64,000 nucleotides of DNA from Turnera subulata (lineage: Eukaryota; Streptophyta; Magnoliopsida; Malpighiales; Passifloraceae), in NCBI GenBank assembly GCA_028386065.3, contig JAKUCV010007353.1, positions 1 to 64,000 of the forward strand. Reading direction: 5' to 3'. This document shows positions 798 through 46,657 of the stretch, in pieces. The notes under the pieces were generated by a model. It did not search any database. It saw only the letters and a list, made by a program, of their open reading frames with translations, and was not told the DNA's origin. The position numbers and the translations under genes are program-made. Numbering within the stretch: position 1 is the stretch's first letter; each line of letters opens with the position of its first letter.

Positions 798-800
798 CAA

Positions 801-1428
801 CCCTGATGCTATCATTCCGCGAGAACCACATACCGCCCGTGTTGTTCTGGCCAGGAAGCTCGAACCGGTTTGCTGGAGGAAAACGAAGTGGGATGACACC
901 ATGATCATCTTTGGGCTACCACTGGGTCTCCGTGAGTAGAACCATGTTGGACTTGTACTGGTTTTTCAGATCTCTCAAGGTAAGCATGAACTCCTGGGAA
1001 CGCCTAGCGATTCCTCTGCAGTTCCAAACCAGTAGATGGGCCTTTGGCCAAGTTGGTGGTAACCGAGTTACTCTGGGCATGCTCTAGGCAGTCATTGAAA
1101 GCTGGTAGTAGGTGCCTTGGTCCAGGAATTGGCAAGTAGGCTCTAGGTTGAATTCCTAAAGTCTTTCAGAAATGAAAAACATGACGGAATTGGCCGAGCC
1201 GTAGAAGGAGATTCTCAGAGTGCTTTGATCCTCCAGGAAGAACGTCTCTTCCATGGGAGTGACAAAGAACCTGGAGGAGTAGAGTTCGTCGATGAAGACC
1301 AGACGAGGCATCCTGCTGAGCTCGTTAGGTAGTTCCTCTGGACGTTCGCTGATTAGGTTGTAGGCCAACCGATTCCTTCTTCCGAGGGAGGCACCCTCAA
1401 CGAAGAAGACAGATGATGGAGCAGGCAT
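801..1428 (-). pseudogene. Antisense ORF2 of the non-autonomous Gypsy family, copy 1, 3' truncated
   Basis: Starts with MPAPSSVFFVEGASLGRRNR at 1428. The N-terminal domain of about 90 residues is open to ...MFFISERL, then a TAG replaces a glutamine codon present in the other families. After further stops the same frame runs into the WNCRG-type endonuclease-like segment and is cut off at the SINE boundary. A TATA box (tctataaaat on the minus strand, 1525-1533) lies about 100 bp upstream, the same place as in copies 3 and 4. The function of the N-terminal domain is unknown to me. Substitutions relative to copies 3 and 4 look largely synonymous. Confidence 0.7.
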
Positions 1429-2484: not shown

Positions 2485-2881
2485 CTATGGAGTTACTTGC
2501 TTCTCTAGATCTTTTACAAGTTTTTGTATGTTCTCGACCTGGGAGGAGAGTTCCGCACTCCAGTTCGATCTGCATCACTGCAGAGCTGACCTTCCTCAGT
2601 GAAGTGTTCAGTTGCGTCAGTGTCTGCAGTGATGTTTCGCTGGGAGCAGTTGCCTTGCCCTTTCTATCATCAGCATCCGTGCGACCGGAAGGCTCCTCCT
2701 TGCCGACAGGTTTCTTTCTCCGTCTTCTGGAGACGACCATATGTTCCTTGAGACCGATGATGTTCGTCTTGAAGCGTTTCTTCGGAGGTTCTTCATCGGA
2801 GTCCGTAAAGGGATTAACACCACCGGTATAACTTAACTACTCTGAGTCAGAGGTAGTTCGAGTTCTTATTGGTGAGTCCAT
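2485..2881 (-). pseudogene. Antisense ORF1 of the non-autonomous Gypsy family, copy 1
   Basis: ATG at 2881 begins MDSPIRTRTTSDSE followed by an in-frame TAG, after which the same frame continues into an acidic patch and the NLS-like DSDEEPPKKRFKTN, a basic cluster (SRRRRKKP) and a helical tail. A frameshift near the end separates it from the ancestral C-terminus (...KDLEKQVTP), which is still readable in the next frame to the stop at 2485. A TATA box (cttataaaaacc on the minus strand, 2915-2927) sits about 40 bp upstream of the ATG and is conserved in copies 2 and 3. Product unknown; the composition suggests a small nuclear nucleic-acid-binding protein, which is inference only. Confidence 0.65.
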
Positions 2882-7022: not shown

Positions 7023-7706
7023 TTATCTTCTTGGTACAACGTTGACCCTGAAGCTATTAGGGTCATTGGTAATGTTGACCCTGATGCTATCATTCCGCGA
7101 GAACCACATACCGCCTGTGTTGTTCTGGCCAGGAAGCTCGAACCGGTTTGCTGGAGGAAAACGAAGTGGGATGACACCATGATCATCTTCGGGCTACCAC
7201 TGGGTCTCCGTGGGTAGAATCATGTTGGGCTTGTACTGGTTTTTCAGATCTCTCAAGGTAAGCATGAACTCCTAGGAACGCCTAGCGATTCCTCTGTAGT
7301 TCCAAACCAGTAGACGGGCCTTTGGCCAAGTTGGTGGTAACCGAGTTACTCTGGGCATGCTCTAGGCAGTCATTGAAAGCTGGTAGTAGGTGCCTTGGTC
7401 CAGGAATTGGCAAGTAGGCTCTAGGTTGAATTCCTAAAGTCTTTCAGAAATGAAAAACATGACGGAATTGGCCGAGCCGTAGAAGGAGATTCTCAGAGTG
7501 CTTTGATCCTCCAGGAAGAACGTCTCTTCCATGGGAGTGACAAAGAACCTGGAGGAGTAGAGTTCGTCGACGAAGACCAGACGAGGCATCCTGCTGAGCT
7601 CGTTAGGTAGTTCCTCTGGACGTTCGCTGATTAGGTTGTAGGCCAACCGATTCCTTCTTCCGAGGAAGGCACCCTCAACGAAGAAGACAAATGATGGAGC
7701 ACGCAT
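7023..7706 (-). pseudogene. Antisense ORF2, copy 2, full length but with in-frame stops
   Basis: From the ATG at 7706 to the TAA at 7023 is 684 bp, 228 codons, the same length as in element E. Residues 1-90 form the conserved unknown domain. A linker rich in Pro, Thr and Arg follows, then a C-terminal segment starting WNCRG, with PTETQW and GGMWFS further on. This resembles the first half of the endonuclease/exonuclease/phosphatase domain of plant LINEs; the catalytic C-terminal half is absent. In-frame stops fall where other copies have Gln or Trp codons, as expected from C-to-T decay. A TATA box lies upstream as in copy 1. Confidence 0.65.
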
Positions 7707-8788: not shown

Positions 8789-9185
8789 CTATGGAGTTAC
8801 TTGCTTCTCTAGATCTTTTACAAGTTTTTGTATGTTCTCGACCTGGGAGGAGAGTTCCGCACTCCAGTTCGATCTGCATCACTGCAGAGCTGACCTTCCT
8901 CAGTGAAGTGTTCAGTTGCGTCAGTGTCTGCAGTGATGTTTCGCTGGGAGCAGTTGCCTTGCCCTTTCTATCATCAGCATCCGTGCGACCGGAAGGCTCC
9001 TCCTTGCCGACAGGTTTCTTTCTCCGTCTTCTGGAGACGACCATATGTTCCTTGAGACCGATGATGTTCGTCTTGAAGCGTTTCTTCGGAGGTTCTTCAT
9101 CGGAGTCCGTAAAGGGATTAACACCACCGGTATAACTTAACTACTCTGAGTCAGAGGTAGTTCGAGTTCTTATTGGTGAGTCCAT
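8789..9185 (-). pseudogene. Antisense ORF1, copy 2
   Basis: Same structure and same lesions as copy 1: ATG at 9185, an in-frame TAG at codon 15, the NLS-like PPKKRFK segment, a basic cluster, and a frameshift before the ancestral C-terminus. The shared lesions show that they predate the 2.8-kb duplication. The TATA box is at 9219-9231 (minus strand). Confidence 0.65.
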
Positions 9186-9370
9186 GGCAGAGAGTGAGTT
9201 TGCCAGGTTTTGAGGTTTGGTTTTTATAAGGGAGCCAGAGACGCGTAAGGGTATAAACGGGATATCGTGTTGAGTTCGGACAGCTGGAAGAGTGTACCAG
9301 AAGCTTATCGTTGTAGGACCCACAGATAAGACGAAATTTCGAGGACGAAATTCTTTTTAAGGTGGGTAGA

Positions 9371-23372: not shown

Positions 23373-24574
23373 ATTGGGTGATTTGAGCCCTTGTATATTG
23401 GAATGCTAGGATTAATTAAGATGATTTAATCTTAGGGTAAAAATATATAATAAGGTTTATTTACACTAAAATGTGTTTAAATCATTACTTGGGCCTTTTA
23501 TCTATCTTTAATCCAATTTTAATGAGATGATTTATCTTTGGGTTGAGGATGGGTTAAAGGGCACAAGTTAATAAATCCTCCAGAGTTTGATTAGCCCATT
23601 AACACATTTCTTGCAGGTTAATTTAAGCTCTGATTTTCGTGGAAAATCAGAGTTAAATCATCATTTAATTAGATTTTGCATTTTTGGTATGATTTTGGCT
23701 TGAATGGGTGTCAATGTGTAATCTATTAATTAGGAGATGATTGAGAGGAGTAGTAATCAAGAAAGCAGAGGATTCTGGGCAGTATAGGGGTTAATTACAC
23801 GGTAGGATCAATCAGGGAGGAATTAGGGAAGAATCGGGACCGAAAAAGAAAAGAACGGGTGAGACGAGTAGGCGCGGGGCGGTCATCACGGGATGACCGC
23901 CGGGCCTGGGCGGTCTTCCACCCATGACCGCCCGGCCTGGCTGTCTTCCATAAGATGATTGCCGGCCATGGCGGTCATGCACACCCAGCAACGCGTTTTC
24001 TCCCCGATTTTCGCCCGTAATCTGATTCTACTCGGTTTTGGCCCAGATTTTTTTGCCATTACCTTGATCATTAAGTTGGTCCATGCCCCTAGGCTACCCA
24101 GAACACTATAAATAGGACCCGTCTCTCACATTTCAGAGGACACATTCTATTACACAAACACTCTTCATAAAGCTTTGAAGCTTGGAGAAACTCTATCTCT
24201 CCAAGCTTAAGAAATAGTTCCATAGGCAAAACTCTGGCAGAATTTCGTGGGTAGCATCATCCATTGAAAGCAGCAAAGGGGAAAATCAAGAAGAACTCCA
24301 AGATTAAGTTGAGGAGTGGGAGGAAATTATGTGGGAGGCACAACCCAAACCAAGGAGCTAGAGGAGGGCTACGAGAGGTAATCCTAATCTCTTTTTGTCT
24401 GACCAATTATTGTTGAGATGTTGATGTTGATGATGATGTGACTGTTGTGATGCCATGTCAAGAACTACGTAGGCTTCGAACCCGGTCACCGGGGTACGTA
24501 GATGGTTTCTAGTGGTGGAAACTCAAGCCCAATCTTCTTCTTCTCCCCTTTTTTTTTAATATTCAGTTATTATG
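23373..24574 (+). repeat. Right (3') LTR of the Tat/Ogre-like element, first segment
   Basis: Matches the left LTR from 17529 onward. The first 138 bp are missing; the junction with the hairpin array falls at a shared 'ttgggtgattt', consistent with a microhomology deletion that also removed the polypurine tract. The LTR is interrupted at 24574 by element A-B and resumes at 46658. Confidence 0.88.
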
Positions 24575-27354
24575 TGAAACGCCCCGACCTGTATTTACCG
24601 TACACTGTAAACACATGCCGGAACTGTGACGACCCAACCATACCAAGCCCAGCATACAGTGTATACAACAGAAATCCGGGCTCAACAGCCCAAAGTAAAA
24701 ACAACAATAATAACTCAACCGGCCCAATGACCCAGTAATATCAAAAAAATTGCACAGCGGAAGACTTAATAACTCACATAAACACTGTATGCGACTTAGA
24801 TGCAAACTATAGATTCAAGTCCTGTCGAAGGGATAACGTCGCAGCCTGTCTGGAATGCACCAAACCTGTACCACAAATAACTCATCCTACAGGATGAAAG
24901 CCCGCAGGTGAGGGGTGAGTCCGAAGTGTTCACCGACGAAGGATAGACAATCAATATGCAACCCTAAAATTACTCAAGTCAAAAACAAGGAAAAACCGAC
25001 AATATACACCAAATCGAAAACAAGACCCAAAACCGGTCCGAGACAAAAAAGACTCAGATAAAATCCAATTTCCAATTTTATCTTTCCGGGCCCCGTCACG
25101 GATAAGCTAGAGGTCAGACCTGGTTATCAACATATTCCGGGTGCCAGACCAAATCCAGAGAACCCAGGGATCGACATCCCAAAAATACGAACCTAGGGAT
25201 AGACATGCTTATCACAAGTAACCCAGGTCAAGGCCACCACGAAACAATCTTAAACCATCGAGTCGTACCACTACTTATCTCGTGACATTTATGTTATCAT
25301 CATCAAAATCAAACTCAGGGATTAACATCCCTAACCAAAATACCGGGATAGACATCCCATCCAAAACCGAGGATCAACATGCTTATCACAATTTATTATT
25401 TAACTCATTATCTGTTGTACCAAAAAGACTCAAGATAAACATCCAAAACTCGACGTACGGGGATAAACATCCCAAAAACAAATCATGACACTAGGATTAA
25501 CATCCCGAAACAAATCACAGCAAACGCAACAACCAATAGAACAATAATCATCAAACACAATAACCAAGTAATGTAGGCACATATTGAAGGAAATCTATCC
25601 TCACCTTGGCCGATTACTCAACTCTGGAAACAATGACCGGTCCGACGCCGGCTCCCCGGGAAACTGCCCGATATCCAAACCTATACAGCAAAACAACATA
25701 TACACATAAATGCACATAATCGGTATGCTATGATGCCAAAATTGCGAAATAACACATCCCGGCTCATATCTCTTTTATTATCAACTTTTACCGAAAATAT
25801 AATACCGTACGTATATCCGAATATAATTTCGGTACCATACTTTAATTAAAAATCTTTTCAAAATAATTTCATAAATTAATTATACTTTGTCTTCCAAAAT
25901 AATAACAATCTAATTTTCCTAGATATTATATCATAAATATGTATTTTCCAAAATAATTTCATAAAAATTATTTACCATAATATTATTTTCTAAAAGAAAA
26001 TAATTATACATGTATATATATTTTCCCAGAAATAATAACATATTTATATAATATTCAAGAAAATATTTTCTTAATACATATCTTTTCTAAATAACCATAA
26101 TATTAATTTTTCAAACAAACATAGTTATTTTAATTTTCAAGGAATCAAAGAATATATTTATATATATACACATATATTCCAAAATACTATAATTAAAACC
26201 CTTTTATATTTTTCTCGAAATAATATATATTTTTTTCCAAAACTGATTTTATTCCAGAAAATAAATAAGTAAATAAATAAATATATTTTTTTACTGGACT
26301 GGGCCATGAACAGTGAGTCCATGCCCAGCCCAAGTCCAACCAAACAACCCAGCCCAAACAACAGCAGATCCAAGGCGCGACCCGACCAGATGAAACAGGC
26401 CGGACGCGGCTCACCTCACGGGTTCAGCAATGGTGGCGCGACGAGCGGCAGGGACGGGCGAGAGGAAGGCTAGCGCGGGGTCGGCGACATCGAGGCGACT
26501 CGTCTGGCGGTGGAAAGGCGGCGCTACGTCACCGGTGTCGTCGTCAGCGGCGCAGAGAGGGAGATCCGCGGGTTTCGCCGCGGGTCAACGGCTCTGCGGT
26601 GCGCGTCCGGCGGCAGAATCAAGCGGGGGAGGCGGCGTTGGGATCGCGACGGCTTGGGGAAGGCCATGGTGTGGGCGGTGCGGCGAACGGCGGCGCGGAG
26701 GCGTTCGACGTGAACAGTATCCGAGGGCAGCCGGGTGACGCACTGTTCACTCTATTTTTTTCTTTTTCTTGTATTTTCTTTATTTTCTTTCTTTTTTTCT
26801 GTATTTTCCCTCTTTTTTTTCTTTTCCATTATTCTTCTTCTTTTTTTTCTTCTATTTTTCTTCTTTTTCTCTAGGTTTCCTTTTTTTTCCTTTCTTTTTT
26901 TTTTCATTCCTTTTTTTCTCTTTTTTTTCTCTCTTTTTCTTTTTTTTTTCCTCTCGTTTTTCTTTTTCCTCTTCTTTTCTCTCTTTTCCTCTTCTCTTCT
27001 TCCCCTCTCCTGCTTTCTTCTTTTTATAAACGTAATATACTGTTAAACCTGTGATTCATCAATAATGCAGCCTGTCTGCATTATAGAGCGAGTCCAGTCC
27101 GGACCAGGAAATAACTGATACCCCCTTAGTTATTTTCCAGTGTGATTTTTCCGAAAATCCCGGGACCCGAAAAATACCAACTTAGGCCCGAAAAATCCAC
27201 AGAAAAATCACGAGCGCGGGAAAACTCTCGGTTTCGAAAAACAACGCCCGATTTATCTTGAATTAATTACCCAAGATTAATTCAACAGTAAATCACGGTA
27301 AAAAGACTTTTACAGTCCCGGTAAAAATCTAAAATTTTTACCCGGGCTGTTACA
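24575..27354 (-). repeat. LTR A (3' LTR of element A-B)
   Basis: 2780 bp, TGAAACGCCCC...GGGCTGTTACA in plus sense. In plus order it contains a zone of short palindromes (about 25150-25510), AT-rich DNA, a CpG-rich block (26390-26740), a polypyrimidine tract (26738-27025) and a TATA box (tttataaaaag in sense, about 27021-27031). In sense the transcript would start with the polypurine stretch. Confidence 0.9.
25150..25510 (-). repeat. Short-palindrome zone GGGAT-nnnn-ATCCC in LTR A (also in B, E and F)
   Basis: Repeated 14-bp cores GGGATAGACATCCC, GGGATCGACATCCC, GGGATTAACATCCC and GGGATAAACATCCC in irregular spacing, with arm variants that stay paired (AGCAT/ATGCT at 30065, AGGAT/ATCCT at 43692, AAGGAT/ATCCTT in the E LTR near 36466). 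The homologous zones are 29946-30375, 36340-36715, 41345-41710 and 43505-43830. Confidence 0.8.
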
Positions 27355-27373
27355 GTCTACCCACCTTAAAAAG
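27355..27373 (-). other. Polypurine tract of element A-B
   Basis: In sense the bases just before LTR A read ctttttaaggtgggtagac. The same block closes copies 1 and 2 at 3066 and 9370. It defines the element's minus polarity. Confidence 0.75.
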
Positions 27374-27539
27374 AATTTCGTCCCCGAAGTTCCATCTTAT
27401 CCGTGGGTCCTACCACGATAAGCTTCTGGCACACTCTGCCAGGTGTCCAAACTCAACGCGTTATGTCGCTTATACCCTTAAGCGACATCTCATCCTCTAT
27501 AAAAACCAAACCTCATGACTGGCAAACTCACACACAGCC

Positions 27540-27916
27540 ATGGACTCTCCAATCCGATCTCAAACGACCTAAGGCTCCGAGAACAACAGCTACATCGGTG
27601 GCACTGCCTTCCCGACAAGCTCCGATGAAGAACCTCCCAAGAAGCGGTTCAAGACAAACATATCGGCTTGAAAGAGCACATGGTCGTCTCCCCAAAACGG
27701 CGAAAGAAGCGTGCCAATAAGAAGGCTAATGATCGAAAGGGCAAGGCAACGGCCGAAAGTAGCACTCCGCAGCAGACTCTGACGCTGCTGAACGTCTCAC
27801 TGAAGAAGATCAGCTTGGCGGTGATGCAAATAGAACTGGTGTGCGCGGAGCTCTTCCCTCACGTGAAGAACGTACAAAAGCTTGTAAAAGATCTTGAGAA
27901 GCAAGTAACTCCATAG
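27540..27916 (+). pseudogene. Antisense ORF1 of element A-B
   Basis: ATG at 27540 gives MDSPIRSQTT then a TAA; the frame continues through an acidic stretch into DEEPPKKRFKTN. A one-base loss then shifts frame before LKEHMVVSPKRRKKRANKK, and the open frame continues to ...KNVQKLVKDLEKQVTP, stop at 27916. The layout is Ser/Thr-rich N-terminus, NLS-like basic motif, basic linker, and a C-terminal amphipathic helix with heptad-like Leu/Val spacing. The TATA box ctataaaaacc (27497-27507) is about 40 bp upstream of the ATG; 'aataaataaaata' follows the stop. No family recognised. Confidence 0.65.
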
Positions 27917-28734
27917 AGTACTTCTTCTCCTGTTGTAAAACTGTTATAAAATAAATAAAATAAGTTTTCTTCTTAAATCAAGACCTTTTATGTTGCGAAA
28001 TCTTATATTAAACAGAAAAACAAAACATCTCAAAGCAGATTAAAAATCAATAATAAGATTTTGAAATCAAACATAAAAAATTAAAAATAAAACTCGTTTA
28101 ACAAAATCAAAACAAAAAGAAATTAAAACAAAACATGTTTTCATGATCAGCGCCCAAATCGGTCCTAAGCATCCTCGATCCCGAGAAACGTGACATACGG
28201 AGCTAACGGTGACGATCACGAGAGCGTCCTGTGTCCCTCGAAAGAAACGTACCCACTTGTTCACAATTTCCGCATAAGCCAAAAACGTCTGTCAAGACAA
28301 CGTATACCCCCATGATGTCCGAACAGGTGCAAGCTTGTCGCTCATGCACTCTACTCGAGGTATGGTCCCATCAGTCTAGCCTCAACGGTCACGGATGCAT
28401 GTGATAAAAGATGCAGGAAAATATAGAAAAACCATGAAAAGAAAGGACAAAGTAGCCAGGGCGAAAGAAAATTATGGGATGGGAAAAATCTGAAAAACTC
28501 TGGCATTGGTAGCCTAAAAAAATGTATAAAGTAACAAAGCAATAAATAAAGCAACGGCAAAATTTTCAAAAAGCAAAATCTTGAAAATCGAAAACAGTAA
28601 TCACGCTCCCCATAAGAGTATAAAAGACGGAGCGGTGAGAAGCAAATCATCAAAAGCATCTAAAAGCAAACAACGCTCAGAAAAACAAAACCACAACGCT
28701 CGGAAAAACAAAATACCCACGCGTCCAAAACACG

Positions 28735-29407
28735 ATGCCTGCTCCATCATCCGTCTTCTTCGTCGAAGGTGCCAACCTAGGCAGAAGGAACCGACTGTCC
28801 TACAGCATGATCATGGAGCGTCCAAAGGAACTTCCGAACGAGCTCGGCAGAATGCCACGTCTGGTCTTCGTCGACGAACTCTACTCATCGCGGTTCTTCG
28901 TCACTCCCATGGAGGAGACGTTCTTCCTGGAGGACCATGGCACTCTGAGGACATCCTACTATGGCTCGGCCAACTCCACCATGTTCTTCATCTCCGAAAG
29001 ACTTCAGGAGTTCAACCTAGAGTCCACTTGCCATTTCCTGGAGCAAGGTACCTACTACCAGCTCTCGATGACTGCCCAGAGTCACTCGTCTGCCCGTAAC
29101 TTGGCCAAAGGCCTGACTACTGGTGTGGAACTGCAGAGGAGTCGCTAGGCGTTCCCAGGAGTTCTCGCGTACTCTGAGGGACCTGAAGAACCAATACAAG
29201 CCAAACATGGTTCTTCTCACGGAGACCTAGTGGCAGCCTCAAGACGATCACGGTCTCATCCCACTCTGGTTCCCTCAAGCAAACCGGTTCGAGCTTCCTG
29301 GCCAGGACAACAAGGGCGGCATGTGGTTCTCGTGGAGTGGCAACATCCAAGTCAACATCAACAACGACCCCAACAGCTTCAGGGTCAACGTCATTCCAAG
29401 GAGTTGA
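28735..29407 (+). pseudogene. Antisense ORF2 of element A-B (unknown domain plus LINE-endonuclease-like segment)
   Basis: MPAPSSVFFVEGANLGRRNR opens a 137-codon frame, the best preserved copy of the N-terminal domain. It includes MPRLVFVDELYSSRFFVTPM and YYGSANSTMFFISERLQEF. Here the codon that is TAA in element E is CAA, so the ancestral frame ran on. A deletion near 29090 shifts frame; the C-terminal segment (residues around RTLRDLKNQYKPNMVLLT, then GGMWFSWSGN and NDPNSFRVNVIPRS) is readable in another frame to the TGA at 29405. A TATA box (tataaaaga, 28619-28627) lies about 110 bp upstream. Function unknown. Confidence 0.7.
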
Positions 29408-29662
29408 ATGTATTTTTATTTTTATAAAATATCAATGTAATATTTCTGTTTGTAATGAAAATATTAGTATTATTAATAATATTTATATTTTGGCTTATTT
29501 ATGGCATCATTACCTCTTATGTGTATGTTCTGCAACAGCTGGCGTTCCTTGACTGGATCCATAATGCACTAACTAAATGATATAAAATAATAAACAAATG
29601 GAGCGAACTATGCAAACAAGGACAACAGGCACACAAGGACTGCCCAACAAGACCTAACGCCC

Positions 29663-29677
29663 GCTCCGCTACCAAAA
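29663..29677 (-). other. Primer-binding site of element A-B
   Basis: Sense TTTTGGTAGCGGAGC directly after LTR B. It is like the initiator-tRNA-Met site TGGTATCAGAGC but with two substitutions shared by E and by the Copia element. Confidence 0.7.
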
Positions 29678-30799
29678 TGAAACGCCCCGACCCGTATTTA
29701 CCGTACACAGTAAACACGTGTCGGAACTATGACGACCTAACCATACCTAGCCCAGCATATAGTGTATACAACAGAAATCCGGGCTCAACAGCCCAAAGTA
29801 AAAACAACAATAATAACTCAACCGGCCCATTGGCACAATAATATCAAGAAAAACTGCACAGCGGAAGACTTAATAACCCACATAAACACTGTATGCGACA
29901 TAGATGCAAACTATAGATCCAAGTCCTGTCGAAGGGATAACGTCGCAAAAATACGAACCCAGGGATAGACATCCCAAAAATACGAACCCAGGGATAGACA
30001 TCCCAAAAATACGAACCCAGGGATCGACATCCCAAAAATACGAACCCAGGGATAGACATCCCAAGCATAGACATGCTTATCACAAGTAACCCAGGTCAAG
30101 GCCACCACGAAACAGTCTTGAACCATCGAGTCGTAGCACTACTTATCACGTGACATTTATGTTATCATCATCAAAATCAAACTCAGGGATCAACATCCCT
30201 AACCAAAATACCGGGATAGACATCCCATCCAAAACCGAGGATCAACATCCTTATCACAATTTATTATTTAACCCACTATCTGTTGTACCAAAAAGACTCA
30301 AGATGAACATCCAAAACTCAACGTACGGGGATAAACATCCCAAAAACAAATCATGACATTGGGATTAACATCCCGAAACAAATCACAGCAAATGTAACAA
30401 CCAATAGAACAATAATCATCAAACACAATAACCGAGTAATATAGGCACATATTGAAGGAAATCCATCCTCACCTTGGCCGATTACTCAACTCTGGAAACA
30501 ATGACCGGTCCGACGCCGGCTCCTCGGGAAATTGCCCGATATCCAAACCTATACAGCAAAACAACATATACACATAAATGCACATAATCGGTATGCTATG
30601 ATGCCAAAACTGCGAAATAACCCATCCCTGTTCATATCTCTTTTATTATCAACTTTTACCGAAAATATAATACCGTACGTATATCCGAATATAATTTCGG
30701 TACCATACTTTAATTAAAACGTTTTTCAAAATAATTTCATAAATTAATTATACTTTGTCTTCCAAAATAATAACAATTTAATTTTCCTAGATATTATAT
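29678..30799 (-). repeat. LTR B (5' LTR of element A-B), first segment
   Basis: Matches LTR A from its start to the 'gatattata' target of element D. At 29946-30062 it contains four in-register copies of an approximately 30-bp unit (acgaacccagggatagacatcccaaaaat type) where LTR A has fewer, so the array expanded after integration. Confidence 0.88.
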
Positions 30800-30911
30800 G
30801 TAACGTCCCGGCTTATCGACTGTCACTACAGACCAACACGAGACCTTTCCAACGTGCTTTGTCCTCACTCGCACGTTTCCGGGGAAAACTTCCCAGGAGG
30901 TCACCCATCCC
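30800..30911 (-). repeat. 5S-rRNA-containing, Cassandra-like LTR tail
   Basis: In sense it begins with the 5S rRNA 3'-domain motif GGATGGGTGACCTCCTGGGA (30891-30910) and runs on through an unrelated GC-rich stretch to ...AAGCCGGGACGTTACA at 30800. Cassandra TRIMs are the known plant LTR elements with 5S sequence inside their LTRs. Only the 3' part of such an LTR would be present. The match to 5S box C is from memory of the plant 5S sequence. Confidence 0.75.
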
Positions 30912-30914
30912 AGA

Positions 30915-32185
30915 ATTGCTCCAGGATCAATCAATGTGAAAGCAACACTACCATATACTGTAAAGATACCTGCTATAACTTGAGAAGCATCAGGGTCCTC
31001 CTCTGTGGTGATGACGAAAGCTCTAGGAACTGCTGTGCTCTAGTTGGCTCCAGATTGGGTCCTTGCGAAAGGGTTCCCACGACCACGACCCTGACCTTGT
31101 CCTTGTGCTCTAGATCCACCTGGCATACTAGCCACAGAGGCCTAAACAGTTGGTGTCGATGCAGAGTTACTGACTCTCCCAAGCTTGGGGCAGGCATAAC
31201 GGTAATGTCCCAACTCATTGCACTCAAAGCATCTGACTGATGATATGGGACGTCGGAAGCGGTTATCTCCAGAACTAGTCACTCTAGGTCCACTCCGTCC
31301 TCCAATCAAAGCTCCGCGGTTGTTAGTCCAACCACGTCCATAGGTCATATGCTGATACTGTCCACGTCCAGCTACAGGTGCACTAACGGCAGGTACATAT
31401 GGCTTCTTGTTCTGACTAGGTGGAACCTGCGGTGCACTCCTCTTCCGGCGATACTCCTGTTGATCACGCCAGGTAACTTTGGACTTCTGAGCATCCCTTA
31501 CCATGTCCTGATAACCTGCAAAATCCTTACATCCCATGATAGCTCGGATGTCAGGATGCAAACCTCTCCAGAAACGTTGGCATCTGGCTTTGGTAGTTGC
31601 TACCAGATCTCCAACATATAGGAATAGGTGGTCAAACTTCTTCTCATACTCTGTCACGGTCATATTATCCTATCGCAACTCCAGGAATTCGCGCTGCATG
31701 CGTTCCTGGAATTCCTCGGTAATGAACTTGTCCTTAAACATAGCCGTGAACTCAGCCCATGGCATCACCACTGGTTTCGACAGGTCTCTTGTGGTAGATT
31801 CCCACCAGGTTGCTGCTTCCTCACAGAAAAGAGAAGCGGCATAGTTCGCCCACTGGTCGGTCGTGCACTTGATCTTAAGCATGACCCTGGCAATCTGACG
31901 TAGCCACTCGTCTGCCTCACGAGGATTAGTCGCTCCTGAAAAAGGCTCAGCTCCAAGCTCAGATAGCTTGGTAAAAACAGGGTCCTCGACGGGTCCCCTA
32001 GCTGTCTGTCAGTGAAGAATCTGGGTCATCATGTGCATCATCTGCAGAGACATCTGGTATGGCATACCTGGTACCCCCTCGTAGACATGTGGATCTTCCA
32101 CGTAGGTATGCGGTTGACCGATTGACACTTGGTCCTCTTCCAAGTGCTGTTGGGCGGCTTGCTGGTGTCCCTCAACCGGATCCAT
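30915..32185 (-). pseudogene. Gypsy gag and protease start of element D
   Basis: Frame starts MDPVEGHQQAAQQHLEEDQ at 32185. After a TGA it reads EADEWLRQIARVMLKIKC and AATWWESTTRDL, the plant retrotransposon gag core. After a TAG comes MTVTEYEKKFDHLFLYV, then an RG-rich linker and a CCHC knuckle (CFECNELGHYRYAC). After two further TAGs it enters protease up to FTLIDPGA, where the usual active site is DSGA. The stops are all explained by C-to-T or G-to-A changes (Trp or Gln codons). The frame ends at the junction with the 5S-like tail. This family is a plausible source of proteins for the gag-less A-B and E elements, whose LTR ends are alike. Confidence 0.85.
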
Positions 32186-32298
32186 CTCGTCCTACCTATA
32201 TGAAAATGTCTGCATGAGTATCATATAACATGTGGAGCAGGATATGCGCAAACAATCAATCAACAACCAATGACCTACAGCCCGCTCTGCTACCAAAA

Positions 32299-34426
32299 TG
32301 AAACGTCCCGATCCGTATTTACCGTTATACACAGTAAACACGTGGGACCACATACTATTACAATAACCATGGCAGTAGATATCACAACCAACAGATTTAA
32401 TACATTAAAAGTACATAATACATCAACCGTACTTATCCCGGTACGGGAACATTATTACAACAAGCATTAATCCACAGAGTTATTAAATACAAGCAGCGGA
32501 AGTCTTAATACAACACAACAATAAACAACAGAATAAACATGATGGATCCGGGCAATAGGATGGAAACAGGGATGGTTGTGATGCAACGTAGGATGGATCC
32601 GGGCCTGGCAGAGGGTGCGCCATAGCTTGCCTCAAATGTACCTGAGCTACGCACAATCAAACTATGCGACCAGGTCGCACAGGCGAGGGGTGAGTCCGAA
32701 GTGCTCACCGGGTAAAAGCAATTATACATATACTAGCAGCCGTAAATAATCCAAGTCTCAACAATAGCAAATAACTAAGGTTCGCATGAACCCTAAATAA
32801 CACATCCGGTGATTCTAGACACGCTATACCAATTTTATTATCAGGGCCCTTATCACTAGTTAAATGATGGCCGTCGCCTGGTAGTCAAGCTAGCTAGCCC
32901 GTGGACCCCGCCCTGGTACCTCCACGTAAAACTGGCACAGACAGGGAGCAGACCCCAAGCACACTCTCCCCCAGCGCCTAAAATAAAAACTGGTACAGAC
33001 AGGGAGCATACCCTAAGCATACTCTCCCCCAGCACCATAAAATAAGACTACCATCTGGCTATTCCAACATTTAACTGTGATTTACTAGATGCCTAAGTGT
33101 GACCAAATTTTATTATTCCTAGTTACTTAGTTTCAACTATCCACCACTCTCCCATTATCCCGAGCAGGCTCACAGCCTCTCCGCTCGTCTGGATGATACC
33201 AACTCACTTAACCGGTACCCTCGGTACTCTACTTCCACAATTTCACAGCCAACAACAACAGCAGTAATAATCTACTAGTACCAACATTTCTAACATTATC
33301 AATAACATCAATTCAGCAACATCAACGGCAACAAATATCATTTAAATTCAATTCACAACAACCATTCACAGCCACAAGAATTATTCAAGCATATAACTCA
33401 CAAACAGCAACTTGGCACTACGGCAATATATAAATAATTACTTATCCTCACCTTAGCTGATTTCTTATTCCTGATAGTCCTCAAAGTGTTCCGGCTCAGG
33501 CTCCTCGGGGTACTGCTCGTTATCAATTCCTACATCAAACAACAATTTATGCACATATAAGATGATATGCAAATGCTCGACTAATACTATAAGCCGTAAA
33601 ATAATTACTGGACCTACTTGGTACTTCCCCGGGTTATTCCCATTATCATCATCATTCGCCATTTGATTACATAGGACGGAATTATTTTATCATATCCGGT
33701 CATTATTCCGGTACGTATTTACTTGATAATACCCTTCTCATTTTTATTTTCTTTGAGTATGTACTTTCCAAAATTATTATTATTACCATGTATATATATT
33801 TCAAAGTAAATATTTCCATTTAATATCCATATACTATTTTCTTATATTTTTTCCAGATTATTCCTATAATTATTATTTTCTAGATTTTATTTCTTATTTA
33901 TTTTTAATTAAAACGGACTGGGCCACGCTTTTCAGCCCAGGTCAAGGCCCAAGGACAGGCCCAGGTATCAAGGTTGCCTAGACCAGCAGCAGGCCCGTGC
34001 ACAGCCAGCAGCCCGCCAGTCCAAGGCCCAGCCCAAGACCGAACCTCACAGCCCAAGCTATACCCCTACTACACGCGGGTTGACTCGTTACCTCGACCAG
34101 CCAAACGGGTCGTCTACCTCATTCTGCTCACCTTCGTCGACGGCGGCACGTGAGCAGACGTGGCGAGGGTGGCGCTACGAGGAGACGGTGACGGCGTAAG
34201 GAGGTGGAAGGCGGTGCGACGAGGAAGGCGATGGCGGATCCGGGTGGCCCTACTCGTCGGGTCCCGCGGCTGCAGCGAGGGGAGCGTCGTCGGTGGCTCG
34301 TTGCAGGTTGTCGCGCACGGAAGGATGACGACGGCGTGGGCTCCAGGTGGCTGCGGCGAGGAGGTGAGGAAGAGGACAGAGGGCGGCTGATGGCGGCCCG
34401 ATGGTAGAGTGAAGGAAGATGACGAA
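32299..34426 (-). repeat. LTR C of element D, first segment (second 42308-42938)
   Basis: TGAAACGTCCC at 32299 to the target site acgaa (34422-34426); it resumes at 42308 and ends GGGCTGTTACA at 42938, in total about 2.76 kb. Its terminal 60-70 bp match A, E and F but the middle differs: it has a two-copy repeat of about 65 bp (32925-33045, 'ggtacagacagggagca...actctcccccagc'). It shares the CpG-rich block (34060-34420). Confidence 0.85.
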
Positions 34427-37298
34427 TGTAACAGCCCGGGTAAAATTTTGAATTTTTACCGGGACTGTAAAAGTCTTTTTACCGTGATTTACTGTTGAAT
34501 TAATCTTGGGTAATTAATTCAAGGTAAATCATGCGTCGTTTTTCGAAACTGAGAGTTTTCCAGCGCTCGTGATTTTTCCGTGGATTTTTCGGAACTAAGT
34601 TGGTATTTTTCGGGTTTCGGGATTTCTCGGAAAATCACACCGGAAAATAACTAAGGGGGTATCAGTTATTTTCTAGTCCGGATCGGACCCTCCTGCATTA
34701 TTGATAATTCACATGATTAATAGTAGATTTACAGTTTATAAAAGAAGCAGAGAAGGAAACCGGTGGAGAAGGAGAGGAAGAGAGGAGAGGAGAAAAAAAG
34801 AAAAAAAGAGAGAAAAGAAAAAAAAGTGAAAAAGAAAAAGGAAAGAAAAAAAAAGAAAGAAAAGAAAAAAGAAAAAGAGGAAAATCAGAAAAAAATAGAG
34901 AGGGGGAAATAAAAAAAAAGAGAAGAAAGAAAAATAGAAAAAAAAATAGAAACAGAAAAAAAAAAGAGAGAAAAGAGAATCAGAAGAAAAAAAAAAGAAA
35001 ATAAAGAAATTCTGAAAAAGGAAAAAAAAAATAGGAGTGAACAGTCGTCACCTTCGCCGCCTCCACTGCCACTGTACACGCCGTGACGATCCGGCCGTTT
35101 TCTCGCCACACCACCGCCGCCATGGCGGTCCTCTCGTCGCCTTTCGACCCCCGTCGCCCGCGTCGCCTTACGCCGTCCGACGCGCCGTTAAGGGCCGTTG
35201 ACCCGCAGCAAAACCCATGGATCCGCTTCTCCTCCGCCTTCTGCATAGCTGTCGTCGCCGCCGCGCCCTCGCTGCTGCCGTTCTGGAGTCGCCTCGATGT
35301 CGCCTTCCCCGCGCTTCCTTCCTTCCTTCTCGCGCTCGCCGTTGCCGTCACAGCCGCTGCAACCCGCGAGGTAAGCCGATCCGGGTGCTTGACCCGTGTG
35401 GTATCCGGGTCGCACTATCTGGGCTTGGATTCCTTTTGGGCTGGGTTGTTCGGGCGTGGGCCGAACTGTGCTGCTGGGCTCTGCACGGGCCTGGGCTGGG
35501 CACTGTGCAGGGTCTGGGCCGGCACTGTTCATGGCCCAGTCCATTTAATTAAAAAAAACAATTATAATATATATTTATTTATAATCTGATATATAATTTT
35601 GGAAAAAAATATATATATTTATTTTGAGAAAATTATGGCTAATTTAACTATGGTATTTTTTAAAAAATATAAATATATTTACTTGATAAATAATTAAGTT
35701 TTGTTTTGGAAACTATTTTTAATTAGGAAAAATAAATATATATGTACCTTGAAATAATTTCTGAAATTCTATATACATATATTATTTTGCCTGGAAAATT
35801 GTGGTTGTGGAAATTATATATATATATGTACTTTGTAAATTAAAGGTAATTATATTTTGTGTTGGAAATATTATTATATATTTAGAAAAAGATAAATACT
35901 ACATATATTTCTGGAAATTATAAATATGTTATTATTTTTCTGGAAAATTATGGAGATTATAATTTTGGAAATTATAATTATTTTATGGAAGTATATTCTA
36001 AAAGAAGTTTTAATTAAAGTATGGTACCGAAATTATATTCGGAAATACGTACGATTAATTATTTTCGGTAAAAGAAGAAAATAAAGAATAAGAACCGGGA
36101 TGGGTAATTTCGCAGTTTGGGCATCATAGTATACCAATTATGTGCATTTATGTGAGTGTATATTGTTTTGTGGTATAGGTTTGATATCGGGCAGTTTCCC
36201 GAGGAGCCGGCGTCGGACAGGTCATTGTTTCCGGAGTTGAGTAATCGGCCAAGGTGAGGATGGATTTCCTTCTATATGTGCCTATATTACTCGGTTATTG
36301 AGTTTGATGTTGCATTTGCTGTGGGTTGCTGTGGTTTGGTTCGGGATGTTTATCCCATGGTCTTGATTGTTGTCGGGATGTTTATACCATGTTGGTTTAG
36401 GATGTTTATCCTTGTGTCTTTTTGGTCTAAGAATAATGGGTTAATAATTATTAAATTGTGACAAGGATGTCGATCCTTGGTATTTTGGATGGGATGTCTA
36501 TCCCAGTATTTCGGTTAGGGATGTCGATCCCTGTGATTTGATTTTAAATGATGATAATATAATTGTCAGTGGTAAGTAGAGGTACGACCGGATGGTTTGA
36601 GACTGTTTTGTGGTGCCATGATCTGGGTTACTTGTGATGGGCATGTTGATACCGGTTTGATTGGGATGTTGATCCCTGAGATTGTTATTGGGATGTTGAT
36701 CCCAGGTTCTTTTTGATCTGGCACCAAGAACAGGTTGATAACCTGGTACGACCCTAGCTTATCCGTGACGGGGCCCGGAAAGATAAAATTGGATAATTGG
36801 ATTTTATTTGTGTCTTTTTGGGCTTGGACCGGTTTTGGATCTTTTCCCTGTGTTTGAGTCTTTTGATTTATTTTGGCGGTTTTGCCTGTTTTTGGACCTT
36901 GAGTTTTATAGTTTTCATATTGATTGTCTTTCCTTCGTCGGTGAGCACTTCGGACTCACCCCTCACCTGCGGGCTTTCATCCCGTAGGTTGAGTTATTTG
37001 TGGTACAGGATTGGTGCATTCCAGACAGGCTGCGGCGTTATCCCTTGGACAGGGCTTGGATCCATAGTTTGCATCTATGTCGCATACAGTGTTTATGTGA
37101 GTTATTAAGTCTTCCGCTGTGCATTGTTTTATTATTGTTGGGCCATTGGGCCAGTTGATTTATTATTATTGTTTTTACTTTGGGCTGTTGAGCCCGGATA
37201 CCTGTTGTATACACTGTATGCTGGTCTTATTTTGGTTGGGTTGTCACAGTTCCGACACGTGTTTACTGTGTACGGTAAATACGGGTCGGGGCGTCTCA
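34427..37298 (+). repeat. 5' LTR of element E
   Basis: In order: U3 with TGTAACAGCCCGGGTAAAA, a TATA box (ttataaaagaag, about 34736-34747), a polypurine tract (34765-35037), a CpG-rich block (35040-35400) and a TGGGCC/TGGGCT-rich block (35415-35550), AT-rich DNA, then a palindrome zone (36340-36715) and a U5 end. Confidence 0.92.
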
Positions 37299-37313
37299 TT
37301 TTGGTAGCGGAGC
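37299..37313 (+). other. Primer-binding site of element E
   Basis: TTTTGGTAGCGGAGC directly after the 5' LTR, identical to that of A-B. Confidence 0.7.
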
Positions 37314-37578
37314 AGGCGGTAGGTCCTTGGGTGTTTGTTGTGCTTATTTGTTGTGCATTGCTCGCTCCACATGCTTAACATGATTGCATGCAAATTCATA
37401 TGGTTAGTGCATTATGGATCCAGTCAAGGGACGCCAGCTGTCGCAGAGCATACACATATGAGGTAAATGATGCCATAATAAGCGGAAATACAAATATTAT
37501 TAATATTGATAATATTGATATTACAAAGGGAAATATTATATTGATATTTGATATTTTATACAAATAAAGAAAATACAT

Positions 37579-38262
37579 TTAACGCCTTGGAACGACGTTG
37601 ACACGAAAGCTAGTGGGGTCATTGTTGATGTTGACCGTGATGTTGTCGCTCCACGAGAACCACATGCCGCCTCTGTCGTCCTGACCAGGAAGCTTGAACC
37701 GGTTTGCTTGAGGGAACCGGAGTGGGATGAGACCGTGATCGTCCCGTGGTTGCCACTGTGTCTCCGTCAGAAGAACCATGTTCGGCTTATATTGGTTCTT
37801 CAAGTCCCTCAGGGTACGCGAGAACTCCTGGGCACGCCTTGCAACTCCTTTGCAGTTCCACACCAGCAGTCATTCCTTTGGCCAGTTTGGAGGTAACCGA
37901 GTCATTCTGGGCATGCTCTGGGCCGTCATCGAGAGTTGGTAGTAGGCACCTTACTCCACAGTCTGGCAAGTGGACTCCAGGTTGAACTCCTGTAGCCTTT
38001 CGGAGATGAAGAACATCACTGAGTTTGCCGAGCCGTAGAAGGATGTCCTCAGAGTGCCATGGTCCTCCAGGAAGAACACCTCTTCCATTGGAGTGACGAA
38101 GAACCGCGATGAGTAGAGTTCGTCGACGAAGACCAGTCGCGGCATCCTGCCGAGCTCGTTCGGTAGCTCTTCAGCACGTTCGTTGACAATGCTGTAGGCC
38201 AGACGGTTCCTTCTGCCTAGGTTGGCACCTTCGACGAAGAAAACGGATGAGGGAGCAGGCAT
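37579..38262 (-). pseudogene. Antisense ORF2 of element E, full length with two stops
   Basis: 684 bp, 228 codons from the ATG at 38262 to the stop at 37579, one continuous frame interrupted only by a TAA (a Gln codon in A-B) and a TGA. Residues 1-102 are the conserved unknown domain (VFVDELYSSRFFVTPMEEVF, GSANSVMFFISERLQEFNL). A Met/Pro/Arg-rich linker follows, then VWNCKGVARRAQEFSRTLRD, NMVLLTETQWQPRDD, GGMWFSWSDNITVNIN. The last part matches the N-terminal half of the LINE/APE endonuclease fold: Asn in WNC, Glu in TET, and the GG.W strand. The domain stops before the catalytic Asp/His. A TATA box (38376-38385, minus strand) is about 115 bp upstream. Confidence 0.7.
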
Positions 38263-39072
38263 CGTGTTTTGGAAGCGTGGGTGTTTTGTTTTCTTTTGAG
38301 CATGGTGGTTTTGTTTTTCTGAGCGTTTGTTTGCTTTTAAAATGCTTTTGATGATTTACACCTCACCGCTCCGTTTCTTTTATACTCTTATGGGGAGCGT
38401 GTTTACTGTTTTCGATTTTCAAGATTTGCTTTTTGAAATTTGTCGTTGCTTTCATTTATTGCTTTGTTACTTTATACGTTTTTCGGGTTACCAAGGCCAG
38501 AGTTTTTCAGCCTTTTTCCATCTTATGATTTTCTTTCACTCTGGCTACTTTGTCTTTTCTTTTCATGGTCTTACTATATTTTTCTGCATCTTTTATCACT
38601 TGCATCCGTGACCGTTGAGGCTAGACGGATGGGACCACACCTCGAGTAGAGCGCATGTGCGACAAGTTTACAGCTGTTCGGACACCGTGGAGAGATGCGA
38701 GACTTGACTGACGTTTTTGGCTCATGCGGAAATTGTGAACAAGTGGGTAACGTCTCTTTCGAGGGACACAGGACGCTCTCGTGATCGTCACCGTTAGCTG
38801 CGTACGTTACGTTTCTCGGGATCGAGGATGCTTAGGACCGATTTGGGCGCTAATCATGAAAATATATTTTGTTTTAATTCCTTTTTGTTTTGATTTTGTT
38901 AAACGAGTTTTGTTTTTAATTTCTTTATATTGGATTTTATATTCTTATTATTGATTTTTGTTTTGCTTTGAGACGTTTTTATCTTTCTGATAGCATAAGT
39001 TTTCACAATTTAACAAGAGTTTTTGATTTAAAAAGGAAACTTATTTTATTTATTTTATAATAGTTTTACAAC

Positions 39073-39822: not shown

Positions 39823-42302
39823 GAAAAAGAAAAAGGAAAGAAAAAAAAAGAAAGAAAAGAAAAAAAGAAAAAGAGGAAAATCAGAAAAAAAGAAAACAGA
39901 GAGGGGGAAATAAAAAAAAAAAAGAGAGAAGAAAGAAAAATAGAAAAAAAATAGAAACAGAAAAAAAAGAGAGAAAAAAATCAGAAGAAAAAGAAAAAAA
40001 AATAAAGAAATTCTGAAAAAGGAAAAAAAAATAGGAGTGAACAGTCGTCACCTTCGCCGCCTCTACTGCCACTGTACACGCCGTGACGATCCGGCCGTCT
40101 TCTCGCCACACCACCGCCGCCATGGCGCTCGTCCTCTCGTCGCCTTTCGACCCCCGTCGCCCGCGTCGCCTTACGCCGTCTGACACGCCGTTAAGGGCCG
40201 TTGACCCGCAGCAAAACCCATGGATCCGCTTCTCCTCCGCCTCCTGCATAGCTGCCGTTGCCACCGCGCCCTCGCAGCTGCCGTTCTGGAGTCGCCTCGA
40301 TGTCGCCTTCCCCGCGCTTGCTTCCTTCCTTCTCGCGCTCGCCGTCGCCGTCACAGCCGCTGCAACCCGCGAGGTAAGCCGATCCGGGTGCTTGACCCGT
40401 GTGGTATAGGGGTCGCACTATCTAGGCTTGGATTCCTTTTGGGCTGGGTTGTTCGGGCGTGGGCCGGACTGTGCTGCTGGGCTCTGCACGGGCCTGGGCT
40501 GGGCACTGTGCAGGGTCTGGGCCGGCACTGTTCATGGCCCAGTCCATTTAATTAAAATAAAACAATTATAATATATATATTTATTTATAATCTGATATAT
40601 AATTTTGGAAAAAAATATATATTTATTTTAAGAAAATTATGGCTAATTTAACTCTGGTATTTTTTAAAAAATATAAATATATTTACTTGATAAATAATTA
40701 AGTTTTGTTTTGGAAACTATTTTTAATTGGGAAAAATAAATATATATGTACCATGAAATAATTTCTGAAATTCTATATACGTATATTATTTTGCCTGGAA
40801 AATTGTGGTTGTGGAAATTATATATATATATGTACTTTGTAAATTAAAGGTAATTATATTTTGTGTTGGAAATATTATTATATATTTAGAAAAAGATAAA
40901 TACTATATATATTTCTGGAAATTATAAATATGTTATTATTTTTCTGAAAAATTATGAAGATTATAATTTTGGAAATTATAATTATTTTATGGAAGTATAT
41001 TCTAAAAGGAGTTTTAATTAAAGTATGGTACCGAAATTATATTCGGAAATACGTACGATTAATTATTTTCGGTAAAAGATGAAAATAAAGAATAAGAACC
41101 GGGATGGGTAATTTCGCAGTTTGGGCATCATAGTATACCAATTATGTGCATTTATGTGAGTGTATATTGTTTTGTGGTATAGGTTTGATATCGGGCAGTT
41201 TCCCGAGGAGCCGGCGTCAGACCGGTCATTGTTTCCGGAGTTGAGTAATCGGCCAAGGTGAGGATGGATTTCCTTCTATATGTGCCTATATTACTCGGTT
41301 ATTGAGTTTGATGTTGCATTTGCTGTGGGTTGCTGTGGTTTGGTTCAGGATGTTTATCCCATGGTCTTGATTGTTGTCGGGATGTTTATCCCATGTTGGT
41401 TTAGGATGTTTATCCTTGTGTCTTTTTGGTCTAAGAATAATGGGTTAATAATTATTAAATTGTGACAAGAAAGTCGATCCTTGGTATTTTGGATGGGATG
41501 TCTATCCTGGTATTTTGGTTAGGGATGTCGATCCCTGTGATTTGATTTTAAATGATGATAATATAATTGTCACGTGGTAAGTAGAGGTACGACCGGATGG
41601 TTTGAGACTGTTTTGTGGTGCCATGATCTGGGTTACTTGTGATGGGCATGTTGATGCCGGTTTGATTGGGATGTTGATCCCTGAGATTGTTATTGGGATG
41701 TTGATCCCAGGTTCTTTTTGATCTGGCACCAGGAACAGGTTGATAACCTGGTACGACCCTAGCTTATCCGTGACGGGCCCGGAAAGATAAAATTGGATAA
41801 TTAGATTTTATTTGTGTCTTTTCGGTCTTGGACCGGTTTTGGATCTTTTCCCTGTGTTTGAGTCTTTTGATTTATTTTGGCGGTTTTGCCTGTTTTTGGA
41901 CCTTGAGTTTTGTAGTGTTCATATTGATTGTCTTTCCTTCGTCGGTGAGCACTTCGGACTCACCCCTCACCTGCGGGCTTTCATCCCGTAGGTTGAGTTA
42001 TTTGTGGTACAGGATTGGTGCATTCCAGACAGGCTGCGGCGTTATCCCTTGGACAGGGCTTGGATCCATAGTTTGCATCTATGTCGCATACAGTGTTTAT
42101 GTGAGTTATTAAGTCTTCCGCTGTGCATTGTTTTATTATTGTTGGGCCATTGGGCCAGTTGAGTTATTATTATTGTTTTTACTTTGGGCTGTTGAGCCCG
42201 GATACCTGTTGTATACACTGTATGCTGGTCTTATTTTGGTTGGGTTGTCACAGTTTCGGCACGTGTTTACTGTGTACGGTAAATACGGGTCGGGGCGTTT
42301 CA
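39823..42302 (+). repeat. 3' LTR of element E (5' part in the gap)
   Basis: Matches the 5' LTR from about 34825 onward with few differences, including the CpG-rich block (40045-40400), the TGGGCC-rich block (40430-40550) and the palindrome zone (41345-41710). Confidence 0.92.
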
Positions 42303-45722: not shown

Positions 45723-45729
45723 CATTATA

Positions 45730-46652
45730 TCATAAATATGTATTTTCCAAAATAATTTCATAAAAATTATTTATCATAATATTATTTTCTAAAAGAAAAT
45801 AATTATACATGTATATATATTTTCCCAGAAATAATAACATATTTATATAATATTCAAGAAAATATTTTCTTAATACATATCTTTTCTAAATAACCATAAT
45901 ATTAATTTTTCAAACAAACATAGTTATTTTAATTTTCAAGGAATCAAGGAATATATTTATATATATATACACACAAAATATTTACTGTTCACGCGTTCGG
46001 CGTGAACAGTAACCGAGGGCAGCCGGGTGACGCACTGTTCACTCTATTTTTTTCTTTTTCTTGTATTTTCTTTATTTTCTTTCTTTTTTCTGTATTTTTC
46101 CCTCTTTTTTTTCTTTTCCATTATTCTTCTTCTTTTTTTTCTTTATTTTTCTTCTTTTTCTCTCGGTTTCCTTTTTTTCCTTTCTTTTATTTTTTTCATT
46201 CTTTTTTTCTTTTTTTACTCTTTTTTTCTCTCTTTTTCTTTTTTTTCCTTTCTTTTTTCTTTTTTCCTCTTCTTTTCTCTCTTTTTCTCTTCTCTTCTTC
46301 CCCTCTCCTGCTTTCTTCTTTTTATAGACGTAATATACTGTTAAACCTGTGATTCATCAATAATGCAGCCTGTCTGCATTATAGAGCGAGTCCAGTCCGG
46401 ACCAGGAAATAACTGATACCCCCTTAGTTATTTTATGGTGTGATTTTTCCGAAAATCCCGGGACCCAAAAAATACCAACTTAGGCCCGAAAAATCCACGG
46501 AAAAATCATGAGCGCGGAAAAACTCTCGGTTTCGAAAAACGATGCCCGATTTACCTTGAATTAATTACCCAAGATTAATTCAACAGTAAATCACGGTAAA
46601 AAGACTTTTATAGTTCTGGTAAAAATCCAAAATTTTTACCCGGGCTGTTACA
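45730..46652 (-). repeat. LTR B (5' LTR of element A-B), second segment
   Basis: Resumes the match to LTR A at 'tcataaatatg'. At about 45980 it skips some 500 bp present in LTR A (about 26180-26710), losing most of the CpG-rich block, then continues through the polypyrimidine tract (46040-46325) to GGGCTGTTACA. Confidence 0.88.
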
Positions 46653-46657
46653 TTATG

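Follow-up and report, generated by a model that had tools for sequence, protein, structure and literature searches.

Several plant Ty3/gypsy retrotransposons carry extra open reading frames antisense to the element, as the initial annotation of this DNA had correctly noted. These aORF-3R genes are described, in the available part of the source, for maize Grande (gene23), rice RIRE2, Silene Retand and bean PvRetro13, and the product of Grande gene23 is reported there to be nuclear and its gene to have its own promoter (PMC7264820). For both Grande and Retand, the antisense products have been proposed to act as regulators (PMC7264820; PMC11963269). Like the aORF-3R elements as described in PMC7264820, the family analysed here has protein genes that run antisense to the element and lie on its 3' LTR side, and like Grande gene23, with its reported promoter (PMC7264820), these genes have TATA boxes of their own. 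Antisense extra ORFs are already known; the literature searched yielded no family without gag-pol that has retained such a pair under selection. Among the literature matches listed, which comprised titles and the starts of abstracts under open licence and are no proof of absence, there was no gag-pol-less element with an antisense gene pair.

The window, by which we mean the whole stretch of 64,000 nucleotides analysed, appears to be plant nuclear DNA with nested LTR retrotransposons and host genes. It contains an uninterrupted subtilase reading frame (54530-56902, minus strand; Peptidase_S8 and fn3_6), a UFC1 reading frame (60022-60564, minus strand) and, recognised by eye, adjoining copia gag-like and protease/integrase-like frames (48013-49716, minus strand).

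In the retrotransposon family described here, the internal region, from just past the gag start to near the polypurine tract (PPT), is an inverted two-gene cassette, and the same arrangement is found in three lineages, with LTR insertions flanked by target duplications (TSDs) for copies 3 and 4 (Table 1). Using copy 3 as a BLAST query, we located related regions at four sites, in agreement with the four copies annotated initially, but these represent three lineages and not four because copies 1 and 2 are one duplicated locus, being 93.5% alike and bordered on the outer side by matching sequence (3067-3627 versus 9371-9926, 97%). A direct duplication of 800-9930 with a spacing of ~6.3 kb brings these two copies together; the stretch that separates them contains a frame resembling copia RNase H (4119-4688, minus strand; by eye). 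Pairwise identity among copies 2, 3 and 4 is 73-88%, with mismatches at 12-27% of the aligned positions. Of the two LTR insertions, copy 3 lies on the minus strand and copy 4 on the plus strand, each with a 5-bp target duplication (TTATG and ACGAA, respectively), and their LTR pairs are 93.7% identical over 2,021 columns in copy 3 and 97.2% identical over 2,467 columns in copy 4. The hallmarks of a non-autonomous LTR element (an LTR pair with TSD, a primer-binding site (PBS) and a PPT) are present in full in copy 3, while copy 4 has the LTR pair, TSD and PBS, the assembly gap at 39073-39822 covering the expected sites of its ORF1 and PPT. No LTR or PBS was recognised in copies 1 and 2, in which the PPT-side end is present.

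Table 1. Positions in the window of the cassette copies, their genes and signals, and the gag of a related element.
Feature	Positions	Strand	Remarks
Copy 1, internal region	813-3066		located by BLAST
Copy 1, ORF2	813..1428	-	tail lost
Copy 1, ORF1	2485..2881	-	
Copy 2, internal region	6831-9370		located by BLAST
Copy 2, ORF2	7023..7706	-	227 codons; four in-frame stops
Copy 2, ORF1	8789..9185	-	one stop, one frame break
Copy 3, left TSD	24570-24574		TTATG
Copy 3, 3' LTR	24575..27354	-	TGTAACAGCCCGGG ... GGGGCGTTTCA
Copy 3, internal region	27355-29677		2,323 bp
Copy 3, PPT-side 27-mer	27356..27382	-	same letters in copies 1, 2 and 3
Copy 3, TATAAA of ORF1	27498..27503	+	42 bp before ATG
Copy 3, ORF1	27540..27916	+	early stop, 1-bp frame break
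Copy 3, overlapping AATAAA motifs	27950..27959	+	34 and 38 bp after ORF1 stop
Copy 3, TATAAA of ORF2	28619..28624	+	116 bp before ATG
Copy 3, ORF2	28735..29407	+	11-bp deletion, two in-frame stops
Copy 3, EEP-like part of ORF2	29117..29404	+	PF03372 profile positions 2-81 of 225, below curated cut-off
Copy 3, gag-start remnant (MDPV...)	29548..29562	-	ATG at 29562
Copy 3, PBS	29663..29674	-	TGGTAGCGGAGC; 3 nt from 5' LTR
Copy 3, 5' LTR, part 1	29678..30799	-	LTR split by ~15-kb nested insertion
Copy 3, 5' LTR, part 2	45724..46652	-	right TSD TTATG at 46653-46657
Relative, gag	31145..32185	-	two stops in stretch; stand-in for helper lineage
Copy 4, 5' LTR	34427..37298	+	left TSD ACGAA at 34422-34426
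Copy 4, PBS	37302..37313	+	
Copy 4, internal region	37396-39072		by BLAST; then N gap 39073-39822 (assembly gap)
Copy 4, gag-start ATG	37414	+	after PBS
Copy 4, ORF2	37579..38262	-	227 codons and stop; two in-frame stops
Copy 4, 3' LTR	39823..42302	+	start lost in gap; right TSD ACGAA at 42303-42307

The readable ORFs run opposite to the element in every copy. In copy 3 the PPT-side 27-mer and the PBS are on the minus strand and ORF1 (from 27540) and ORF2 (from 28735) on the plus strand, and in copy 4 the PBS is on the plus and ORF2 on the minus strand; the polarity opposite to LTR, PBS and PPT that had been annotated for all copies can thus be read in copies 3 and 4, copies 1 and 2 being without LTR or PBS. 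ORF1 has a length of ~125-131 codons and ORF2 one of 227 codons in copies 2 and 4. Each gene is preceded by a TATAAA motif. Upstream of ORF1, the motif starts 43 bp from the ATG in copies 1 and 2 and 42 bp from it in copy 3 (3/3 readable copies), as the annotated distance of ~40 bp had it. Upstream of ORF2, its distance from the ATG is 104 bp in copy 1, 101 bp in copy 2, 116 bp in copy 3 and 122 bp in copy 4 (4/4), so that the 100-115 bp given earlier for ORF2 were slightly narrow for a measured range of 101-122 bp. The ORF strand has 4-6 TATAAA motifs per whole internal region versus 0.6-1.1 expected; the ORF2 boxes of copies 1 and 2 and those of copies 3 and 4 occupy different columns of the alignment. 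The start context of ORF1 is GCCATGGAC in copies 1-3 (3/3), and AATAAA motifs follow the ORF1 stop by 34-39 bp in the three readable copies, the distances in both copy 1 and copy 2 being 35 and 39 bp; no AATAAA-type motif after ORF2 is consistent across copies. ORF1 and ORF2 had been presented as usable reading frames. Every readable copy is disrupted, ORF2 in 4/4 copies by two to four in-frame stops each and ORF1 in 3/3 (copies 1-3) by an early stop and a frame-breaking indel. The ORF1-ORF2 spacer of copies 1 and 2 also holds a purine/pyrimidine tract of ~234 bp (1555-1790; 7837-8099), which is absent from copies 3 and 4 and by BLAST resembles a tract within the LTRs.

What the cassette replaced can be seen from a gag-bearing relative placed at 30802-42938, in whose LTR copy 4 sits. 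The gag of this relative begins at 32185 and matches PF03732 (Retrotrans_gag, 2.9e-16) and PF19259 (Ty3_capsid, 5.8e-07), both above cut-offs; this gypsy-type gag is that of the relative and not of the cassette element itself. Relative and cassette elements are alike at the LTR end (88-90% over 46-49 bp), the LTR start (77-80% over about 200 bp) and the PBS and leader (74% over 148 aligned columns), and the match extends through a common gag ATG, after which the peptides read MDPVEGHQ in the relative, MDPVKGRQ in copy 4, MDPVKERQ in copy 3 and MDPVDGRQ in copy 2, where the PBS and the beginning of the leader are absent. After this gag start the cassette elements depart from the gag frame, the cassette beginning a few codons inside gag. 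Given the shared LTR ends, PBS, leader and gag start codon, the cassette therefore occupies the place of gag-pol. The junction between gag start and ORF2 3' flank is identical in copies 2, 3 and 4, and that between PPT and ORF1 flank in copies 1-3. A search of the relative's gag against all copies, part of copy 4 being in the gap, returned only its own locus and a chance-level match (E 0.37) at 48.9 kb. The internal region has no gag-pol, again with copy 4 partly in the gap, and the description of the family as non-autonomous stands for the copies here. The PPT, PBS and LTR start resemble those of Tekay, and the family may belong to a Tekay-like chromovirus lineage. The left end of the relative (30802-30920) does not match its own LTR end and holds a stretch reminiscent of TRIM elements derived from 5S rRNA, among them Cassandra. 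The cassette family also has a solo LTR (42942-45722, minus strand), flanked by CATTA at 42937-42941 and 45723-45727, next to the LTR start of the relative.

The simplest history of the three lineages in this one window would be that gag-pol was replaced once and that the element then propagated in trans for a long time. A different history, possible but in our judgement rather unlikely, would place the two genes, as antisense extra ORFs, in an autonomous gypsy family like Grande, RIRE2 or Retand, with the copies here as deletion derivatives and selection having acted in gag-pol masters. In its favour, antisense extra ORFs near the 3' LTR are known, from the available parts of the sources, in several plant gypsy families (PMC7264820; PMC11963269), and our evidence comes from a single window. 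It has to contend, however, with the junctions, which are the same in copies 2-4 on the gag side and in copies 1-3 on the PPT side despite 12-27% divergence; it needs the same deletion several times, or a loss of gag-pol exactly from the spacer. By tblastn the relative has no cassette, a result that says little because it lacks the 3' part in which a cassette would be expected; nor does the relative show any pol.

To see how the genes have changed between lineages, NG omega was computed on the ORF2 pairs among copies 2-4 and, for ORF1, on the single pair of copies 1 and 3. Raw omega was 0.116 (copies 2 and 4), 0.156 (2 and 3) and 0.184 (3 and 4) for ORF2 and 0.231 for ORF1. Where DNA looks methylated, third positions rich in C/G can imitate the pattern of selection, and we therefore used a neutral null of 400 simulations per pair with a mutation spectrum derived from the LTR pairs; it takes 80% of transitions as coming from a C/G ancestor, an assumption under which the LTR pairs show ~5% transitions at C/G versus 0.7% at A/T. 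This null shifts the neutral expectation from 1 to ~0.47 (simulated means 0.48, 0.47 and 0.46 for the ORF2 pairs in the above order and 0.49 for ORF1) and makes the constraint weaker, yet the result still stands: omega lies below the neutral expectation in the three ORF2 pairs and the one ORF1 pair, with 0/400 simulations at or below the observed value in each ORF2 pair and 5/400 for ORF1, and the observed third-position share of changes was reached in 0, 0 and 0 (ORF2) and 1 (ORF1) of 400. In-frame stops are low compared with the simulations, yet not exceptionally so, as few or fewer occurring in 29 (copies 3 and 4), 41 (2 and 4) and 64 (2 and 3) of 400 simulations for ORF2 and in 36/400 for ORF1.

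Rates corrected for mutability point the same way for ORF2. Between copies 3 and 4, codon positions 1, 2 and 3 change at 2.86, 1.97 and 5.20, position 3 behaving like the LTR (4.32) and the ORF2 3' flank (5.29; spacer 3.65), and between copies 2 and 3 at 3.58, 2.84 and 7.06 versus 9.06 in the spacer. For ORF1 the rates are 5.49, 6.27 and 9.37, positions 1 and 2 being slower only than its position 3 and not than the preceding flank (4.85). Between copies 2 and 4 there are no indels in 681 ORF2 columns versus 18 in the spacer (751 aligned columns; a nineteenth gap run is the edge of the assembly gap). Copies 1 and 2, split by local duplication, differ by 12 changes in 204 codons (5, 6 and 1 at positions 1-3), with no excess at position 3, as expected of dead copies; over the whole length, which includes the non-homologous tail of copy 1, the counts are 11, 13 and 11. 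Copy 1, as a duplicate of copy 2 that has lost its tail, was left aside when ORF2 was simulated (raw ORF2 omega 0.190 with copy 3 and 0.129 with copy 4). The antisense frame of ORF2 that shares third positions also has a low omega (0.26-0.29) but contains 12-14 stops. A neutral codon-position pattern, which the initial annotation had named among its refuters, is thus not what these genes show: there is firm support that ORF2 was maintained as a protein gene in the ancestors of these copies, and less support that ORF1 was as well.

As to what the genes encode, ORF2 residues 134-219 match at most positions 2-92 of the 225 of PF03372. The best tabled score is 19.3 bits versus a cut-off of 24.5, with E values of 0.017 for the whole copy 4 ORF2, 0.0019 for a copy 4 piece and 0.001 for a copy 3 piece; an alignment scan gave a best E of 0.00083, with 2/5 members matching and 3/5 holding that part, and the corresponding parts of copies 1 and 2 had no PF03372 match. 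ORF2 does not contain a whole EEP nuclease domain above the curated cut-off, and its last two-fifths weakly resembles the start of one. Like the EEP (APE-like) endonuclease of LINEs, this part has the domain start including WNC.G and TET motifs, and it looks like the kind found in LINEs. The LINE domain is N-terminal, whereas ORF2 has ~90 of 225 profile positions at its C-terminus, and therefore no nuclease is expected. The suggestion of a captured gene pair keeps this resemblance in copies 3 and 4, but ORF1 and the first ~130 residues of ORF2 matched nothing in anything searched; likewise, the homology and structure check proposed for ORF2 yielded the sub-cut-off PF03372 match and an uninformative AlphaFold model (mean pLDDT 30.5). 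Homology searches gave 60 candidates for copy 4 ORF2 alone, none at E<=0.01, and 781 for the ORF2 alignment, none at E<=1. A control with the gag piece of the neighbour was also null at a stricter limit (26 candidates, none at E<=1e-5); the collection may therefore lack such plant elements, and the ORF nulls are not evidence of novelty. The first 111 residues of copy 3 ORF2 had 4 pattern matches in viral_contigs and 54 in genome_contigs, none confirmed in either. PDB matches of the ORF2 alignment (5 sequences, best E 0.9) were rejected as noise and a ULK4-like Pfam match of ORF1 (16.5 bits versus a cut-off of 27) as chance. ORF1 is basic (computed pI 9.4 and 10.3 for two parts), its KKRFK and RRRRKK stretches resembling nuclear signals, and its C-terminal stretch is amphipathic (moment 0.56, highest of 11 windows).

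These findings bear on the view that the cassette is made of pieces of captured genes, one perhaps from a LINE and another from a host gene, which have no function and are passengers of a non-autonomous element. We consider this improbable. Of the EEP domain only the first ~40% is represented, no readable copy is without disruption, and plant LTR elements hold captured gene sequences by the hundreds to over a thousand per genome, according to the available part of PMC13317346; against these points stand the constraint beyond the mutation-spectrum null in three ORF2 comparisons, the avoidance of indels by ORF2, the TATA boxes of the genes and the start context of ORF1, constant in copies 1-3. 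Very improbable is a role of the antisense transcript itself, which would pair with genomic RNA and feed small-RNA control with the proteins incidental, for although regulation by antisense transcription has been proposed for such elements (PMC7264820, in the part available), RNA pairing predicts neither slower codon positions 1 and 2 nor a lack of frame-breaking indels, and 24000-33000 has no Rfam family at gathering score, a collection from which a new regulatory RNA would be absent.

We favour, with a probability of roughly 0.55, an old non-autonomous Ty3/gypsy family that was mobilised in trans and carried two antisense accessory genes under their own promoters. In our model, the LTR transcript would be packaged and copied by helper gag-pol via the common LTR ends, PBS and leader, while each gene would have a TATA promoter that drives transcription in the direction opposite to the genomic RNA, ORF1 and ORF2 being made from separate antisense mRNAs. 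Placing a gene in inverted orientation is established practice in the design of retroviral vectors and retrotransposition reporters, since the RNA is otherwise cut short; inversion could similarly let a gene that has a promoter and poly(A) signal of its own ride the retroelement RNA without truncating it. ORF1 is predicted to be a small basic nuclear coiled-coil protein and ORF2 a 227-aa protein combining an N-terminal domain without known match and part of an EEP domain, too short for a nuclease. Both would act as accessory factors that raise the element's own spread, most likely in the nucleus, possibly by maintaining its chromatin or its transcripts in an active state or by directing the helper's machinery towards it, the function being a guess; the cassette may also supply a regulator of the partner element, as suggested initially. 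A transposon-encoded anti-silencing factor is cited in the available part of PMC13317346. Counting against our preferred reading, it is hard to see how a copy would benefit from encoding a trans-acting protein unless that protein acts preferentially in cis; moreover, the readable copies are all disrupted, the three lineages come from one window and ORF1 was compared on one pair. By analogy to phage satellites, it is tempting to go further and speculate on a retrotransposon satellite, a gag-pol-less element that long carried two genes manipulating its helper or host silencing, an idea we regard as unlikely.

LTR elements that are non-autonomous are commonly seen as passengers that play no active part. 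Should a family lacking gag-pol maintain selected protein genes as it multiplies, then selection acts on what the passenger itself produces, and our result suggests that accessory genes can belong even to a parasitic element. A small cassette with its own promoters would also make the role of plant antisense extra ORFs testable free of gag-pol.

The aORF-3R genes lie between pol and the 3' LTR (PMC7264820, in the part available), whereas the cassette element has no gag-pol, two genes and a TATA box for each. Bdelloid LTR elements carry extra ORFs, one family without most of pol having an env-like ORF (PMC5408684), and orchid gypsy elements contain a demethylase domain (PMC9289625); like the cassette family these are LTR elements with acquired extra protein domains, but the available parts of their descriptions make no mention of antisense genes with their own promoters. 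Unlike Retand, the cassette ORFs have no match to Transposase_28 (PF04195), which is absent among the Pfam matches of the ORF1 and ORF2 pieces.

Like LARD, TR-GAG and Dasheng elements, the cassette elements are without complete gag-pol and have retained from a helper lineage the LTR ends, the PBS and the leader. TR-GAG keeps gag, and LARDs and Dasheng are not known to have a conserved coding region. Unlike in these elements, unrelated genes stand in for gag-pol in the cassette element.
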